Shown: positions 22,400 through 28,479, counted from the stretch's first letter. The stretch is DNA of 64,000 nucleotides from Holdemania massiliensis AP2 (GCF_000327285.1 NZ_HE998568.1:1-64000), one strand, 5' to 3'. Program-made: numbers and translations. Notes: a model not told the origin generated them from the letters alone.

Positions 22400-22487
22400 T
22401 CATTATGAACGAGAAAGACGGAAGCCGTTTGCTAAACCGTTTTTCTTTTTGTTTGACGTTATCAAAGCTTGCTTCTATCCTCCAGTT

Positions 22488-24581
22488 TCACTTGGTTTCA
22501 GCCTGAACCATCGTTTTCATCAAACCTAAAATTGAATCATACTGTCCTTCTTCTGCCAAGATCACTTCCTCATCTGGCCAATGATACAGTTTAAGCAGTC
22601 TACGCTGAACTCGCACACTAGCGAGCTGGAGCTCCTTTAACTTAACAGTCTGTTGAAGCTTTAATTTTTCAGCAATTTTGGCATTAACAACCACCAAAAT
22701 TTGCTCAGGAATTTCTTGTTTAAATTGCTTTTCTACATCCACAAATGCACGAAGTTGTTCGGCTTTTAAAAGGTTCTTAACGATCTTGTCCTCATAAGCT
22801 TTTTTACTGCTGCTAACAAACGCTTCGGTTAACGCTTCACTTGAGATCAGACATTGACTTTTGATTCTCTGTTTAAAATCTTCGATATCTACGCGATCTT
22901 TCGCATCCGTGACAAAGCGATCCTCTACAATCGTAAAAACCCATTGTTCTTGTTTTATAATGGAACTAAGCTGCAGATAACTCGCCAAAGAATGAAGTTG
23001 ACAAAATCCATATTGAAACAGCCCTTCGATTCCAAAATCAAAATCACCGCAAGTAACCAATGTCCAATCCGCCCGCTTGCTTTTCATGCGTTTATGAATC
23101 TCCGCAATGACTTTTTTTTGATCCTTAATCAGCAAGGCATTGGAGTAATACTGAACATTCATGCCATTTTTTCTCATCTGATCCGCAGCGATTGCAGCTG
23201 TCAATTCATTATTAAAAACGGCAATCTTGGATCCACGATAGCTGCAAATCCAGTCAACCCAACTTGTTAAGCCCTGAAAATGCGGAATTTCTCCCTTCTC
23301 CAAGTTTAGTTTTACATGGGGAAAGAAGGTGGTCAAATCTTTGTGTTCGCACAGAAACAACGCGCATGGCGTAAGCCATTTAGCATTTTGAAAAACGGGT
23401 GCTTCCCAAAAATGAAAGGGTATCTCGGAAGTCAGCCAGAGCCAACAATTCCAATCCTGAGCTAACTCGTTCATCCAGCGCCAGGCTAGAGGCAGCTGCT
23501 TCGCATGTAAACCAAAATACCCTTTTTCCCAAATTATCGCACTACTTGGAAGCTGATGTAATTTGTACAATTCATTTGGATGATTGCTGGCTAGTGTTTC
23601 AAAGAAAAGTGCTTCCGACATAACTAAAATTGGTACACGCCACGAAATTGAAGTTATATTTTTTGAATCCTTATCTGAAGCTAACTTGAACTCCGTTGGC
23701 AAATAAATTCCGTTGACAATTTCATCTGGATTTTCTTTATCCAAGATCAGCATTTGCTGGATGAGATTGAGTACAGAATTAATCAGACTACTATAAGGCA
23801 ACAAGATTATAATATGCCTCAGCTTTTGTTTTTCAGCCACCCGTAGAGCGGATGAAAGTAAACCATAAAACCTTTCCATCCCCGGCGGTGTTTCACAATA
23901 AACCAACGGTGAAGAAATTTCAGCCTGACAACAGTTCTGATAGAAAACTGATTCGTCGCTAACCCTTTCACTTAGCTGTTGAAGTCGTAGGTTCCACCGC
24001 GGATCCGACGAATTCACTGGTTTATTACCACTTGAATCCGCGTAATCCGCAGCCGCTAAACAACTTAATAAAATTCGATAAGTTAAGGCCGATAGATGGG
24101 TTGTTTGGGTAGGAGCAGGTAATGGTTCAAGCAGCGCTTCATGAATTGCTACATACTGCTCGCAATGAGCTTCACTATCCTTCATGGCTACTTGAAAGCG
24201 AAAAGGATATTTTGCAGCCTTTTCCGCAAGCATATTGGGAAGTCCTGGACGATGATGAGCATAGACCAGTGTAGCTTCAGAACTTTCTTTCTGATCTCCT
24301 AACAGCAGTTTGACAGCCGCATCGCGGTGTTCAATCGGCAAAGCTTCAAGATGCCCCTCCATTTTGTGCAGTTCTTCCTGATTGGATTGATTCAGCTTTC
24401 CTAAATCATGAGCTAAGGCTGCACATTTTAGAATGTGGTAATAATCTTGGTACCGTTGTTTTGATAATGCTTGTTTCATTCTATCCAAGTTCATTAAAAC
24501 ATGCTGCGTTACGCCTTGAATATGCTTAGTATAGGGCTGAGCCGGGCGACCGTTTTTGGGACTGTGAGCCAGATAAATCAC
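22488..24581 (-). CDS. cas3: Cas3-like protein (type I-C lineage): HD nuclease intact, helicase signatures lost
   Basis: 697 residues from GTG 24581, which overlaps the cas7 stop (GTGA); TTG 24587 is an alternative. The N-terminal HD nuclease has all expected metal ligands: His20, His58-Asp59 (AALAHDLGKL), His85, His109-His110 (YAHHRPGLPN) and Asp179 (LAAADYADS). The SF2 helicase fold is still traceable, but its motifs are replaced. Walker A reads CETPPGMERF (229-238, no GKT). The DExH box is IIWEKGY (349-355). SAT is TSE (384-386). The RAGRxNR region is LQLSSIIKQ (about 536-544). The C-terminus still resembles I-C Cas3. Canonical Cas3 unwinds and degrades target DNA with ATP; this one should be unable to hydrolyse ATP. 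It is the last gene of the operon. No stop or frameshift interrupts it. Confidence 0.86.
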   Translation of the reverse strand: MIYLAHSPKNGRPAQPYTKHIQGVTQHVLMNLDRMKQALSKQRYQDYYHILKCAALAHDLGKLNQSNQEELHKMEGHLEALPIEHRDAAVKLLLGDQKESSEATLVYAHHRPGLPNMLAEKAAKYPFRFQVAMKDSEAHCEQYVAIHEALLEPLPAPTQTTHLSALTYRILLSCLAAADYADSSGNKPVNSSDPRWNLRLQQLSERVSDESVFYQNCCQAEISSPLVYCETPPGMERFYGLLSSALRVAEKQKLRHIIILLPYSSLINSVLNLIQQMLILDKENPDEIVNGIYLPTEFKLASDKDSKNITSISWRVPILVMSEALFFETLASNHPNELYKLHQLPSSAIIWEKGYFGLHAKQLPLAWRWMNELAQDWNCWLWLTSEIPFHFWEAPVFQNAKWLTPCALFLCEHKDLTTFFPHVKLNLEKGEIPHFQGLTSWVDWICSYRGSKIAVFNNELTAAIAADQMRKNGMNVQYYSNALLIKDQKKVIAEIHKRMKSKRADWTLVTCGDFDFGIEGLFQYGFCQLHSLASYLQLSSIIKQEQWVFTIVEDRFVTDAKDRVDIEDFKQRIKSQCLISSEALTEAFVSSSKKAYEDKIVKNLLKAEQLRAFVDVEKQFKQEIPEQILVVVNAKIAEKLKLQQTVKLKELQLASVRVQRRLLKLYHWPDEEVILAEEGQYDSILGLMKTMVQAETK

Positions 24582-25450
24582 AGACAATCCATCAAATCCC
24601 GCACCGGGGCAGCCTTTCCCACCAACAATTGATTGAGCTCAGCGACACTAGCCGCTAAAGCTTCACTGTCATAATCATGCCAGGAAAGAGCGATTTCTGA
24701 AGTTGTATTTTTCTTATGTGGAGTAAGCATCTCAATAATTTTGAAATCATTAAACGTGCCGCGCGGACGCTGATGCTCCACATAGAAAGCATGCCGAAGA
24801 TCAACCTGACTGCGGATATAGGAAGCTGTTTCTTTATAAACATGCGGAATTAAGCGCAGCAGCAATTCAATGTCTTTCGCCGTACAATGAGTTTTTTGAG
24901 CTGCCGTAGCATTGATAAAAAATGGCATCGCATACAATCCGTAAGAAACAATCCGATAAGCCAACGGAGCCATTCCTTTACTTTTATCATCTTCGACCGG
25001 CATCACCTTCGTGGTCGTCATTCGCTCAACGCGAATCGGATCCAAGGAAACACCCAAGCCAAATTGAACAACACCGGTAGCAATGAATGTTTTACTCTCT
25101 TTCTTTTCACCTTCTAAGAAAGTGGTACCAAAGACGCGAACATCCCAATATTTTGCTAAAAGCTGATCTGATGTTAGTTTGCGCACCTCTTCCCGTTGAG
25201 TTCGCTTACTTTCCAATATCTCATAACCTTCCTGATCTAGTCCCAATTCTTCAGCCACTTCTTTCCACAGCCAGGATTCCTTATCATCCACTAAATCTCT
25301 TAATTTCCGTTTGAAAGAAACAGGTGAGATTTCCCCACGCTTATCTTGTCGAATACGTGGATCACTATCGCGATCCGGGTCTCCATTAGGATTAGAATTG
25401 GTAACATCAATCAGCAGCAGTCCAGTTCCTCGGTTGATCATTTCATTCAT
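24578..25450 (-). CDS. cas7: Cas7 backbone protein, Csd2/Csh2 family
   Basis: 290-residue RAMP protein that would form the repeated backbone of a Cascade-type complex along the guide RNA. Diagnostic N-terminus: GTGLLLIDVTNSNPNGDPD, the Csd2/Csh2 signature, followed by DPRIRQDKRGEISPVSFKRK. A central ATGVVQFG and a C-terminal RPRGTFNDFKIIEM also fit. I chose ATG 25450 (AAGGAGG 9 bases before, eight-base overlap with the gene upstream) instead of the longer frame from 25519. It lies between the second cas8 fragment and cas3 in one operon. Confidence 0.88.
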   Translation of the reverse strand: MNEMINRGTGLLLIDVTNSNPNGDPDRDSDPRIRQDKRGEISPVSFKRKLRDLVDDKESWLWKEVAEELGLDQEGYEILESKRTQREEVRKLTSDQLLAKYWDVRVFGTTFLEGEKKESKTFIATGVVQFGLGVSLDPIRVERMTTTKVMPVEDDKSKGMAPLAYRIVSYGLYAMPFFINATAAQKTHCTAKDIELLLRLIPHVYKETASYIRSQVDLRHAFYVEHQRPRGTFNDFKIIEMLTPHKKNTTSEIALSWHDYDSEALAASVAELNQLLVGKAAPVRDLMDCL

Positions 25451-26408
25451 GCTTTGTTTCCTCCTTATTATTTGTATTTGCCTGCGGGCGAGTATTCTCA
25501 ATCCGCGCATAATAGCCAATCATCAGCTGTGCTTTTTGAGCAGGATCTAAGGTTTCGGAAATCTCTCCAAGTGCGATTTGACTGTTAACATCCTCTAATC
25601 GACTGAGAATCCATTTTACCCAATTTTCACGTTCACCTTGATAAGTATAAGCCCAAGCCCAATAAATCCTCAGCCGTTCAGCTAAGCGCTGATAACCGTC
25701 AAGCGGATTGTCCGCCATCACAAATAACAGATCATTGCCGATCAGCTGTGCCGGATAAGATTTATTTTGTTCTTTATTTCGTACGATAAAGCAGTATTCT
25801 TTGTGCAGCATATCACTAAGTTTCAGCATCTGCCCTAGTTGAAAAGGAACATCTTTCATATAATTCTCCTTCTTGATTTCTAATAACGCTAAAAGTATGC
25901 CAAACAAACCCAACCATCGCGCTGCAGTCTCAGCTTGATTTCGAGATGTTTTATCCACGGCTATCTGATCATTAACCATCCGCTCTCCAAATACAACTGA
26001 CAGAAATGGCATGCTTTTGGCTAAAGCGATCTCTAATAGATGAAAGATCAAATCCGCTTGATCTGCGGTCTGGGGATTTTGCGGCATATAAAGATCATAA
26101 ATTTCATTTATTGTTACAACACTGGTACTTGAACTTGTTAATCCCAGACTACTGTAATTCATCTTAAACAACTGGCAGATTTCCGCAGGTTCCACACATT
26201 TCACTTCCAAATACTGAACTTTTCGCTTTTTTATCATGGGAAGATCCAACACTGGAGCATTTTTGGAAGCATCCAGCCATCGCAACAAATTTGAGCAAAA
26301 TAGTTCAGTCTGCCAAACTTGTTCATATACAACCTGCTTTCTTCCGAGATCCAGCTCGCCTAATAGCATTAAATGAATTTGTGAATCTTTATTTTTATCA
26401 CGGATCAA
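25443..26408 (-). CDS. C-terminal half of a split Cas8c (Csd1), including the Cas11-like helical part
   Basis: 321 residues. The N-terminus (IHLMLLGELDLGRKQVVYEQ) looks like the middle of Csd1, where a Leu-Gly-Leu-x-x-x-x-x-Arg-x-x-Val strand precedes a long helix. The last third (LGLFGILLALLEIKK, LGQMLKLSDMLHKEY, DNPLDGYQRLAERLRIYWAW, QLMIGYYAR) matches the helical C-terminus of Cas8c, from which Cas11c arises in I-C systems. It starts at TTG 26408, two bases after the TAA of the previous gene and in a different frame, with AGGA seven bases before, so re-initiation is plausible. Together with its neighbour it gives about 707 residues, longer than the roughly 600 of a usual Cas8c. Confidence 0.68.
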   Translation of the reverse strand: MIRDKNKDSQIHLMLLGELDLGRKQVVYEQVWQTELFCSNLLRWLDASKNAPVLDLPMIKKRKVQYLEVKCVEPAEICQLFKMNYSSLGLTSSSTSVVTINEIYDLYMPQNPQTADQADLIFHLLEIALAKSMPFLSVVFGERMVNDQIAVDKTSRNQAETAARWLGLFGILLALLEIKKENYMKDVPFQLGQMLKLSDMLHKEYCFIVRNKEQNKSYPAQLIGNDLLFVMADNPLDGYQRLAERLRIYWAWAYTYQGERENWVKWILSRLEDVNSQIALGEISETLDPAQKAQLMIGYYARIENTRPQANTNNKEETKHE

Positions 26409-26410
26409 TT

Positions 26411-27571
26411 TTAATTCCTGCAGAATTTGCGCACAAAGTGCTTCATAAGCTCCAGCACTTCAGCCTGAAAGTCTTCACTTATCTCATACTCTGACAGATC
26501 TCCTAAAATCTGAGCTAAACAAGCATCATTCTGCGGATCTTGTGCAACATAGGCTAATAACAAAGCCGGTTTGTTTCGATGGGCATCGGTCATTCTTCGC
26601 CAGGTTTTATTCTCTCTTTCAGCGGCCGTCAAAAACGCCAGTGCATTGTTCATTTTATCGACTTCTTCCCGCCCTGCCTGAAATGCTTGTGAGCCTGAAA
26701 GCTGATAACGCTCTAGACACGTTGTTGTTTCTTTTTTTGAATAGAGATATGTCTGCCCCAGAACAGGCAGCACTGGATTCGGATATTTTCTGCCAATTCC
26801 TTTCACCAGCTGTGTCTCAAAGGGAGAAACCACAGTATCTGTTTGCTCTTGCTTTTCTTGAAGCAGATCAATTAAACTTCGCCGGGTCACATCTGAACCC
26901 ACTAAATTAGCATAGAGATGAGCTTCCCTAACTTCAAAATAAGTCATGACTTTGCATATATAGGGTTTCTTCTCGCGCTGCTTTTCATTCGGATTGAGCT
27001 GTCCGACAAACAGTTCCTTGAACAAATCAACCAAGGCCTCATCATCGCATCGCTCCAGCTGTTCTTTGATTAAATCTAAAAGCTGTTGCCCAAATCCAAC
27101 GGCTTTATCAGCACGCGGAAAAACATTCAGCAATTGACGCAGTGCGGCCAGTTGAGGTTGTGTACTGCTTTTGACTTCAGCTAGCTGCTCTTGCGTCCAA
27201 GTCCCAATTTGAAACGGACAATTCGCATTCTTGTCCAGTTTTAAATCCAAAGCGCTCAGCGTCTTAATCTTTTCCAATAGCTTCGATTTTTTCCACTTAT
27301 TCCGATCAAAATAATCACAAATTTCCAATGGCAATAACGGCGTATGTACACAAATTGCAGGAAAACTGTTGTGGTTCCCTTTGCTGTGTTTCCATAACCT
27401 TCCCATTTCTTCTTTTTCTAAGTACCGTACCCCAACGGGAACCCCATGCTGATCGATCTCAATCAACAATCCTATCTGTTTGCCAACGCTGCTGATATCT
27501 GGATGCACAGTTGGCTGCAGTAATCCCTGATGTTCAAGCGCCTGACTCAAGGCATAGAGTTCATTCAGCAT
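26411..27571 (-). CDS. N-terminal half of a split Cas8c (Csd1)
   Basis: 386 residues from ATG 27571, which has AAGGTG nine bases upstream and overlaps the cas5 end by 11 bases; the open frame from 27610 is longer but lacks a site. The beginning (MLNELYALSQALEHQGLLQP..HPDISSVG, then LLIEIDQHG) follows the Csd1 pattern of an N-terminal helix and an I-x-x-x-I-x-I-D-x-x-G strand. The end (MNNALAFLTAAER..WRRM..NKPALLLAYVAQDP) corresponds to the Csd1 segment just before its central strand. Cas8c recognises PAM and recruits Cas3 in I-C systems. Assigned by pattern and by position between cas5 and cas7. Confidence 0.66.
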   Translation of the reverse strand: MLNELYALSQALEHQGLLQPTVHPDISSVGKQIGLLIEIDQHGVPVGVRYLEKEEMGRLWKHSKGNHNSFPAICVHTPLLPLEICDYFDRNKWKKSKLLEKIKTLSALDLKLDKNANCPFQIGTWTQEQLAEVKSSTQPQLAALRQLLNVFPRADKAVGFGQQLLDLIKEQLERCDDEALVDLFKELFVGQLNPNEKQREKKPYICKVMTYFEVREAHLYANLVGSDVTRRSLIDLLQEKQEQTDTVVSPFETQLVKGIGRKYPNPVLPVLGQTYLYSKKETTTCLERYQLSGSQAFQAGREEVDKMNNALAFLTAAERENKTWRRMTDAHRNKPALLLAYVAQDPQNDACLAQILGDLSEYEISEDFQAEVLELMKHFVRKFCRN

Positions 27572-28166
27572 AAAGAAGGACACCTTTCTGAATTTGGACC
27601 GACGAAACAAAAATCGGAGCTACCTGTCCCTCTGTAGGTCGGGTATACATTTTTAACAACATGGAAGGGATCGTTAAATTGATTGATCTATCAACTTGGG
27701 TAGAGGAACGCAGAGGACCAAAATAAGTTGGCGTAAACTCTTTCCAGCCTAAAAATGGGGTTGTATAAAATTGTCCTGACGTTAAGCGACGCAGAAATAC
27801 TTCCTGAAGCTGATGTTGAGCATTAATCTCATGAGTAGTTGGGTAATAAGCCAGGATTTCCCCATAGACCTTATAACAAACATTTTCTAAAACCGTCGCA
27901 AAGAATTGAAAGTTACTGGTTCCACTTTTACGCAAGGGTCCACCATAATTGGTAGTGTATCGAGAATAAACAACAGGTAGACACAATTCTACTTTTCGCG
28001 GCATAAAATAAGCCTGTTTTGACATAACCACGGACTCAAAAATACTCTTTAGTGCAGATTGGGTAGGAGCGGGATAAGAAATCGGTGCCGAACCCGTATC
28101 AGGACGTGAAAACATCGCGACAGGGCCAGCAATTTCAAAGGCCACAGGATAACTTTTTTCAATCAT
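27561..28166 (-). CDS. cas5: Cas5 (Cas5d-like), probably lacking the processing site
   Basis: 201 residues, somewhat short for Cas5d (about 220-240). It starts at ATG 28166 behind AAGGAG. The N-terminal RAMP strand (VAFEIAGPVAMFSRPDT), SYPAPTQSALKSIFESVV, and the later block FLRRLTSGQFYTTPFLGWKEF match Cas5d well. In I-C systems Cas5d replaces Cas6 and cuts the repeat RNA with a Tyr and a Lys-His pair. Anchoring on the RR..GQ..Y..P.LG.KEF block, the Lys-His positions are Gln119-Leu120 here, and the ESIYW-type Tyr is Val. The alignment is from memory of the family. First gene of the operon. Confidence 0.8.
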   Translation of the reverse strand: MIEKSYPVAFEIAGPVAMFSRPDTGSAPISYPAPTQSALKSIFESVVMSKQAYFMPRKVELCLPVVYSRYTTNYGGPLRKSGTSNFQFFATVLENVCYKVYGEILAYYPTTHEINAQHQLQEVFLRRLTSGQFYTTPFLGWKEFTPTYFGPLRSSTQVDRSINLTIPSMLLKMYTRPTEGQVAPIFVSSVQIQKGVLLYAE

Positions 28167-28428
28167 TAAATACTCCTTTCTTTATTATATTATCAGAGTT
28201 AAATTTTCAGGTTACAGCCTGCTGTTAACTCAATTTTAAACCGGACACAAGGGAAAGTAAATTCTTATTAAGTTTATCTTTCGCAACAAGTAAAAATTAT
28301 TTTAAGCTTTAAAGGTCACATCTAGAATCTGTTGTTCATTGATCAGCAAGTCTGTTTCAACCTTTGCAGCTTAACCATGATGAACTTCGATCTCAAATAC
28401 AAGATAAACATAGAAAGAATATACAACA
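28167..28428. other. Gap upstream of the cas operon, no CRISPR array
   Basis: No repeated unit, direct repeat pair or reading frame of note is seen here or at 22400-22487, the other flank of the operon. A TATAAT-like box lies just before the cas5 ribosome site on the minus strand, but the -35 is weak. Confidence 0.6.
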
Positions 28429-28464
28429 AAAATTCACGGTATCGCCACCGACACCGTGAATTTT
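28429..28464 (-). terminator. Terminator of the peptidoglycan-binding protein gene
   Basis: A perfect 12-base stem (AAAATTCACGGT with ACCGTGAATTTT) with a 12-base loop, 16 bases after the stop codon. Confidence 0.8.
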
Positions 28465-28479
28465 AGACTCAATTTTTGA

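Follow-up and report, generated by a model that had tools for sequence, protein, structure and literature searches.

A solitary type I-C-derived cas operon in Holdemania massiliensis AP2 with a retained HD nuclease site and a substituted Cas3 helicase

What can a type I-C-derived effector operon do when it lies alone, with no array and no adaptation genes around it, and with the helicase motifs of its Cas3 substituted? This question is raised by a locus in the first 64,000 nucleotides of contig C2 of the Holdemania massiliensis AP2 assembly (3.81 Mb), a stretch that was analysed whole and is referred to here as the window. An original prediction, made from the sequence of the window alone, had proposed that the operon is kept by selection for a derived function.

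Gene content of the operon

On the minus strand, from 28166 to 22488, five ORFs are found in the order cas5, cas8 (in two parts), cas7 and cas3, with neighbours overlapping. Their predicted positions were exact and the PADLOC profile matches (Cas5c, Cas8c, Cas7 and Cas3c) agree with the predicted set of I-C-derived effector genes. The operon is also more AT-rich than its surroundings, as had been noticed, with a GC content of 41-44% versus ~50%. The gene set stands as cas5, cas8, cas7 and cas3, with two amendments: the cas8 "halves", taken before as two genes, are a single frameshifted one, and the likely starts were corrected to ATG 27571 for cas8, ATG 25450 for cas7 and, in the case of cas3, GTG 24581, which overlaps the stop of cas7. 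The features are as follows.

27561..28166, minus strand: cas5, 201 aa, I-C-derived; PADLOC Cas5c with E=1.4e-18; aligned with 4f3m and canonical Cas5c
26411..27571, minus strand: cas8 N-terminal part, 386 aa, from ATG 27571 to the frameshift stop; positions 1-363 of profile PDLC01562
26445..26470, minus strand: cas8 frameshift zone, a one-base shift; similarity to Dielma continues in the second frame
25443..26408, minus strand: cas8 C-terminal part, TTG start after the Shine-Dalgarno-like CAGGA; positions 368-657 of PDLC01562
25443..25859, minus strand: predicted internal cas11 within cas8, 138 aa; Shine-Dalgarno AAGGAG followed by TATATG; kept in relatives
24578..25450, minus strand: cas7, 290 aa, ATG 25450 with Shine-Dalgarno AAGGAGG; Pfam PF05107 (4.5e-54); 76% identical to Dielma
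22488..24581, minus strand: cas3, 697 aa from GTG 24581; HD site intact, helicase motifs I, II, III, V and VI substituted
28167..28479, minus strand: region upstream of the operon, with the terminator of the preceding gene (28464-28429) and no CreR-like solitary repeat
22400..28479, no strand assigned: whole species-specific insert; flanking genes adjacent in two congeners

Genomic setting and acquisition

The genes for an acylphosphatase and a peptidoglycan-binding protein that flank the operon are 6.1 kb apart in this genome and adjacent in two congeners, separated there by 196 and 235 bp. Among 273 genomes of the family, the variant operon was found in only one other, that of Dielma fastidiosa. 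The empty site in the congeners, the lower GC content and the rarity in the family together make a gain of the operon in this species the simplest reading of these comparisons. A search of phage and plasmid records for a mobile carrier gave no close relative; a viral contig (L054) contains a distant Cas7 relative, 27% identical. The variant operon adjoins a tmRNA gene and a tRNA pair in two of the related loci, L053 (4686-5033) and L052 (5557-5755), which are possible integration hot spots.

Relatives of the variant operon

We have compared the operon with nine related ones, from D. fastidiosa, from six Clostridia MAGs and, more distantly, from two further genomes of the order of one of these MAGs (L047-L053, L078 and L079). 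All nine share the solitary layout, with no cas1, cas2 or cas4 adjoining the operon, and like them the window has a Cas8 of the PDLC01562 type and the cas5-cas8-cas7-cas3 order without adjacent adaptation genes. Cas7 is 64-76% identical between the window and its near relatives. The clade is already present in the PADLOC profile library as I-C (PDLC01562). No paper describing it was found in the open-access literature; a prior description is possible in the subscription literature, which lay outside the search.

The window Cas5 has Q-L where B. halodurans Cas5d (4f3m) has the catalytic K-H, so the loss of the Lys-His pair that had been proposed is confirmed by alignment. None of the six variant Cas5 proteins compared has the pair, which the canonical Cas5 encoded in the Holdemania genome does have. 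Since the missing adaptation genes and the Cas5 without Lys-His are common to the relatives, both are traits of the clade, and the loss in Cas5 is not private to the window.

The relatives differ from the window in other respects. Wherever complete, their cas8 is unsplit, with about 690-720 codons. The helicase residues, checked one by one, are intact in Dielma and in five MAG Cas3 proteins, and the two distant relatives have GSGKTT and DEAH, with ASGS instead of SAT. Walker A and B are thus normal in every relative with a readable Cas3 and the window is the exception within its clade, indicating that the dead helicase and the split cas8 are peculiar to this copy. The comparison thus does not support a conserved subtype defined by the whole combination. 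The converse stated with the original prediction, that this copy might be a lone decayed outlier among homologues with normal Cas3 and adaptation genes, holds for Cas3 and does not for the adaptation genes, which the homologues also lack locally.

Arrays and guides in the genome

No direct-repeat array was found within the 64-kb window, which also contains no cas4-cas1-cas2 and no excess of sites resembling the I-C repeat (10 found versus 11 expected), in agreement with the prediction for this stretch. Neither side of the operon has a remnant of an array or of a CreR. Elsewhere, the single Cas1 of the genome is encoded on contig C1 within a complete canonical I-C operon (L002; cas3-cas5-cas8-cas7-cas4-cas1-cas2) flanked by one array per side. 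A pattern search of the genome, the kind of check that had been proposed, identified six I-C arrays on C1 that have the end GTGGATTGAAA(T) in common, indicating that guides are available in the cell though none are in the window, and that the suggested supply of crRNA from another locus exists. Furthermore, the GTGGATTGAAAT handle occurs both in the canonical I-C repeats of this genome and in the guides of the variant lineage.

Four of these arrays are away from the canonical operon (G000:C1:1190474-1191115, 1236641-1237008, 1415120-1415418 and 1467823-1468789); their repeats are slightly different, and in one array the repeat is two bases longer. Self-targeting of the operon promoter was also considered, and 0 of 61 spacers from the array loci examined match it.

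CreR-like guides in the relatives

In L052, L053 and Dielma alike, a single degenerate I-C repeat lies about 140-180 bp upstream of cas5, in the opposite orientation, and forms a short hairpin whose stem sequence is different in each (the elements are at L053 5900-6262, L052 5780-6146 and L047 5950-6283). The guide that follows the solitary repeat matches a site located 83-101 bp ahead of the start of cas5, beside a TTC PAM and near a TTGACA. Pairing within type I Cascade predicts an unpaired sixth base, and over the first 17 positions, with every sixth omitted, the guides match at 15/15, 14/15 and 14/15 (shuffle p 0.0002, 0.0002 and 0.0006; combined p ~8e-9). Over the first 18 positions, Dielma has mismatches at 6, 7, 12 and 18, and L052 at 6 and 10.

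CreRs have been described as a class of crRNA-like RNAs that repress cas operons (PMC12737573). A degenerate repeat with a guide to the operon's own cas promoter, beside a TTC PAM, fits this pattern, so that the three relatives would provide a further, I-C-derived example of cas operons under autoregulation, for which the prediction is a TTC PAM with every sixth base free. Unlike them, the window operon has no such repeat upstream, and no solitary copy was found elsewhere in its genome with the pattern used.

Cas3: nuclease site and helicase motifs

A residue-by-residue alignment of the window Cas3 (residues counted from the TTG at 24587) confirmed that the HD site is kept and the ATPase features are missing. 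All eight HD-nuclease residues are in place (H22, H60, D61, K64, H87, H111, H112 and D181). In the helicase, the Walker A Lys and Thr are R239 and F240, the DE of motif II is E354-K355, the SAT of motif III is S-E388-I389, the Asp of motif V is E521, and the Gly and both Arg of motif VI are S542, I543 and Q546. Of the canonical I-C combination of HD nuclease and ATP-dependent helicase, only the first is preserved, with motifs I, II, III, V and VI substituted. An AlphaFold model found its best matches in the I-C Cas3 structures 8zns and 8g9u; its mean pLDDT of 57 is low and it serves as fold support only.

The cas8 split and the internal Cas11

Both parts of cas8 match a single profile, PDLC01562, contiguously (positions 1-363 and 368-657, with 229.5 and 227.3 bits), and neither carries the canonical Cas8c signature, PDLC01562 being the only profile matched. 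The unsplit Cas8 of Dielma and L053 score 643 and 542 bits on it, and for the Cas8c of the canonical system in the Holdemania genome the scores are 406 bits on PDLC01647 and 27.7 bits on PDLC01562. Compared with Dielma, the second frame shows equal similarity on either side of the first frame's stop (SAGAYEALCAQILQELK versus AESAYKAICEKVLKDME). Such similarity, extending well upstream of the stop, indicates that the halves are one gene with a one-base frameshift; the two frames were joined for alignment and search purposes only. Inspection of the junction by eye gave no slippery heptamer, and programmed frameshifting was rejected. Translation of the C-terminal part could possibly re-initiate at the TTG adjoining the upstream stop.

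The small subunit of I-C systems is translated from inside cas8. One spacer match in the cas8 of the relatives corresponded to a shared Shine-Dalgarno and ATG sequence, through which an internal Cas11 start was recognised; in the window, this predicted start (AAGGAG...TATATG) opens a 138-aa frame inside cas8 and is conserved in the relatives.

Selection and decay

The domains of the operon have evolved at uneven rates. Branch lengths of the window and of Dielma were 1.40 and 1.29 for HD, 1.16 and 0.28 for RecA1, 1.19 and 0.71 for RecA2, 1.89 and 0.49 for the Cas3 CTD and 0.30 and 0.27 for cas5. RecA1 and the CTD are therefore ~4x faster on the window branch, HD and cas5 are about equal to Dielma, and cas7, cas8, cas11 and RecA2 are intermediate, with Cas7, Cas8 and Cas11 faster in the window. 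These lengths indicate an HD domain not relaxed relative to its intact homologue, in a comparison of few sequences with long noisy branches, a small sample that limits selection and decay arguments alike. The window cas3 has no stop or frameshift despite ~65% helicase divergence. In a neutral simulation of helicase plus CTD, stops appeared in 300 of 300 runs at at least 0.1 substitutions per site, from which it follows that selection has maintained the cas3 frame along most of the branch. The HD rate and the open cas3 favour, as far as such comparisons allow, a retained HD function over simple decay, with the cas8 frameshift pointing the other way. The claim that frames and HD site are maintained by selection gains from both results.

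The strongest competitor is that the operon is decaying: lacking an array, an autoregulatory guide and a helicase, it would have come under relaxed constraint, then suffered the cas8 frameshift, and would have no function today. This is a serious contender, if one we would not bet on. It accounts well for a dead helicase and a split cas8 that occur in the window copy only, for the absence of the promoter-targeting CreR-like guide of its lineage and for the general acceleration of cas7, cas8 and the CTD. In addition, cas8 is broken by one base and similarity persists to the junction in either frame, which suggests that the frameshift is recent. It accounts poorly for a cas3 that is free of stops and frameshifts at such divergence, for the retention of every HD residue together with the HD rate, for the unchanged rate of cas5 and for the Shine-Dalgarno start retained by Cas11, although decay may still have begun recently.

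The split might also be an error of the assembly, in which case cas8 would be intact and the change in Cas3 alone would be real. This explanation concerns cas8 only, overlaps the other readings and seems unlikely: a single-base shift with homology in frame on either side of the junction is what it would produce, but the junction has no homopolymer, and the C-terminal part has a Shine-Dalgarno-like site and a start adjoining the stop.

Proposed function

Our best reading, to which we give a probability of about 45%, is that of an I-C effector that borrows its guides and has been reduced to local, ATP-independent cutting. A solitary operon from an I-C-derived lineage, without adaptation genes and with a Cas5 devoid of known processing residues, would have been acquired horizontally. 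Cas5, the Cas8 parts, the internal Cas11 and Cas7 would assemble into a Cascade on mature crRNAs from the canonical I-C system of the cell; the GTGGATTGAAAT handle fits such loading, for which its sharing and the co-occurrence of both systems are the basis. Cas3 would act as a pseudo-helicase with an HD nuclease, and target recognition would lead to a local cut of the displaced strand with no ATP-driven translocation. We infer this borrowed-crRNA local cutting from the anatomy of the operon together with two precedents: I-C Cas3 cleaves ssDNA in vitro without ATP (PMC11417383), and a III-B module gained by horizontal transfer works with crRNAs from the I-F system resident in its host (PMC5576922). 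The motif states and domain rates support the predicted derived I-C effector with its HD site kept and its ATPase lost. Whether an HD-only Cas3 on a pseudo-helicase, a split Cas8, a Cas5 without processing residues and resident I-C crRNAs make up a natural ATP-independent guided local nuclease is more doubtful, and we propose it tentatively.

Alternatively, the complex could be a crRNA-guided DNA binder that silences transcription or replication, with Cas3 as a structural remnant whose HD activity is irrelevant. Binding is the mode of action of type IV-A and inactivated type V systems (PMC12669027), the guide of the relatives should direct their Cascade to bind a promoter, and the window helicase is dead; on the other hand, the HD residues are all retained and HD is the part of Cas3 that is not accelerated, making this explanation rather improbable. 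A complex guided by a non-CRISPR RNA or DNA, suggested by a window without array or guide, is very improbable given that the genome has six I-C arrays that carry the shared handle and that the relatives use I-C-type repeats.

Among known systems, canonical type I-C (L002, N. lactamica, B. halodurans Cas5d) has the same cas5-cas8-cas7-cas3 set, HD site, Cas3 fold (8zns, 8g9u) and internal small subunit, and differs from the window locus, which has no cas4-cas1-cas2 and no array, a Cas5 without Lys-His, another Cas8 profile and a dead helicase. The PDLC01562 variant is closer, with its solitary order, Cas5 without Lys-His, internal Cas11 start and Cas8 of about 690-720 aa; its other members have an intact helicase and an unsplit cas8, three have a CreR-like guide and Dielma has its own arrays. 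The III-B module of Marinomonas mediterranea (PMC5576922) is likewise an acquired effector module beside another CRISPR system with usable crRNAs, but it is type III, transcription-dependent and experimentally shown, whereas the window module is I-C-derived and its sharing is deduced. An incomplete I-C system with a Cas8-Cas5 fusion and no Cas3 (PMC10910872) is also an incomplete I-C derivative; in contrast, Cas3 is present in the window, with HD kept and helicase lost. The new element is the HD-only Cas3, the clade itself being already profiled as I-C.

A functional HD-only Cas3 would provide a natural example of a type I effector cutting at its target without shredding, which bears on the separation of Cas3 cutting from translocation. 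The clade as a whole suggests that I-C effector modules may be able to spread with neither memory nor guide-processing genes, relying on the guides of a host system, as previously shown for type III modules.

Guides in other genomes with the variant operon

A canonical-type Cas5 was found besides the variant in 5 of the 10 variant-bearing genomes searched (G000, G652, G656, G1003 and G1046), a raw count with no background rate. Another variant-bearing genome, G653, has canonical I-C genes with Cas1. No canonical Cas5 was detected in two variant-bearing genomes, Dielma and G655, indicating that guide sharing is not universal. The Dielma genome contains five arrays with I-C-like repeats of its own; an I-C cas1 is absent, and the sole Cas1 is with cas9. 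These arrays (G140:C1:474422, C2:335547, C3:68818, C3:94563 and C3:98266) carry variant I-C repeats, and neither the Cas1 of Dielma, which is type II, nor its Cas5, which lacks Lys-His, would account for the processing of their pre-crRNA and the acquisition of their spacers (L009/L047). Also in Dielma, a stand-alone HD-domain protein that resembles a Cas3 HD fragment is encoded beside a short array (L068 6576-7391).
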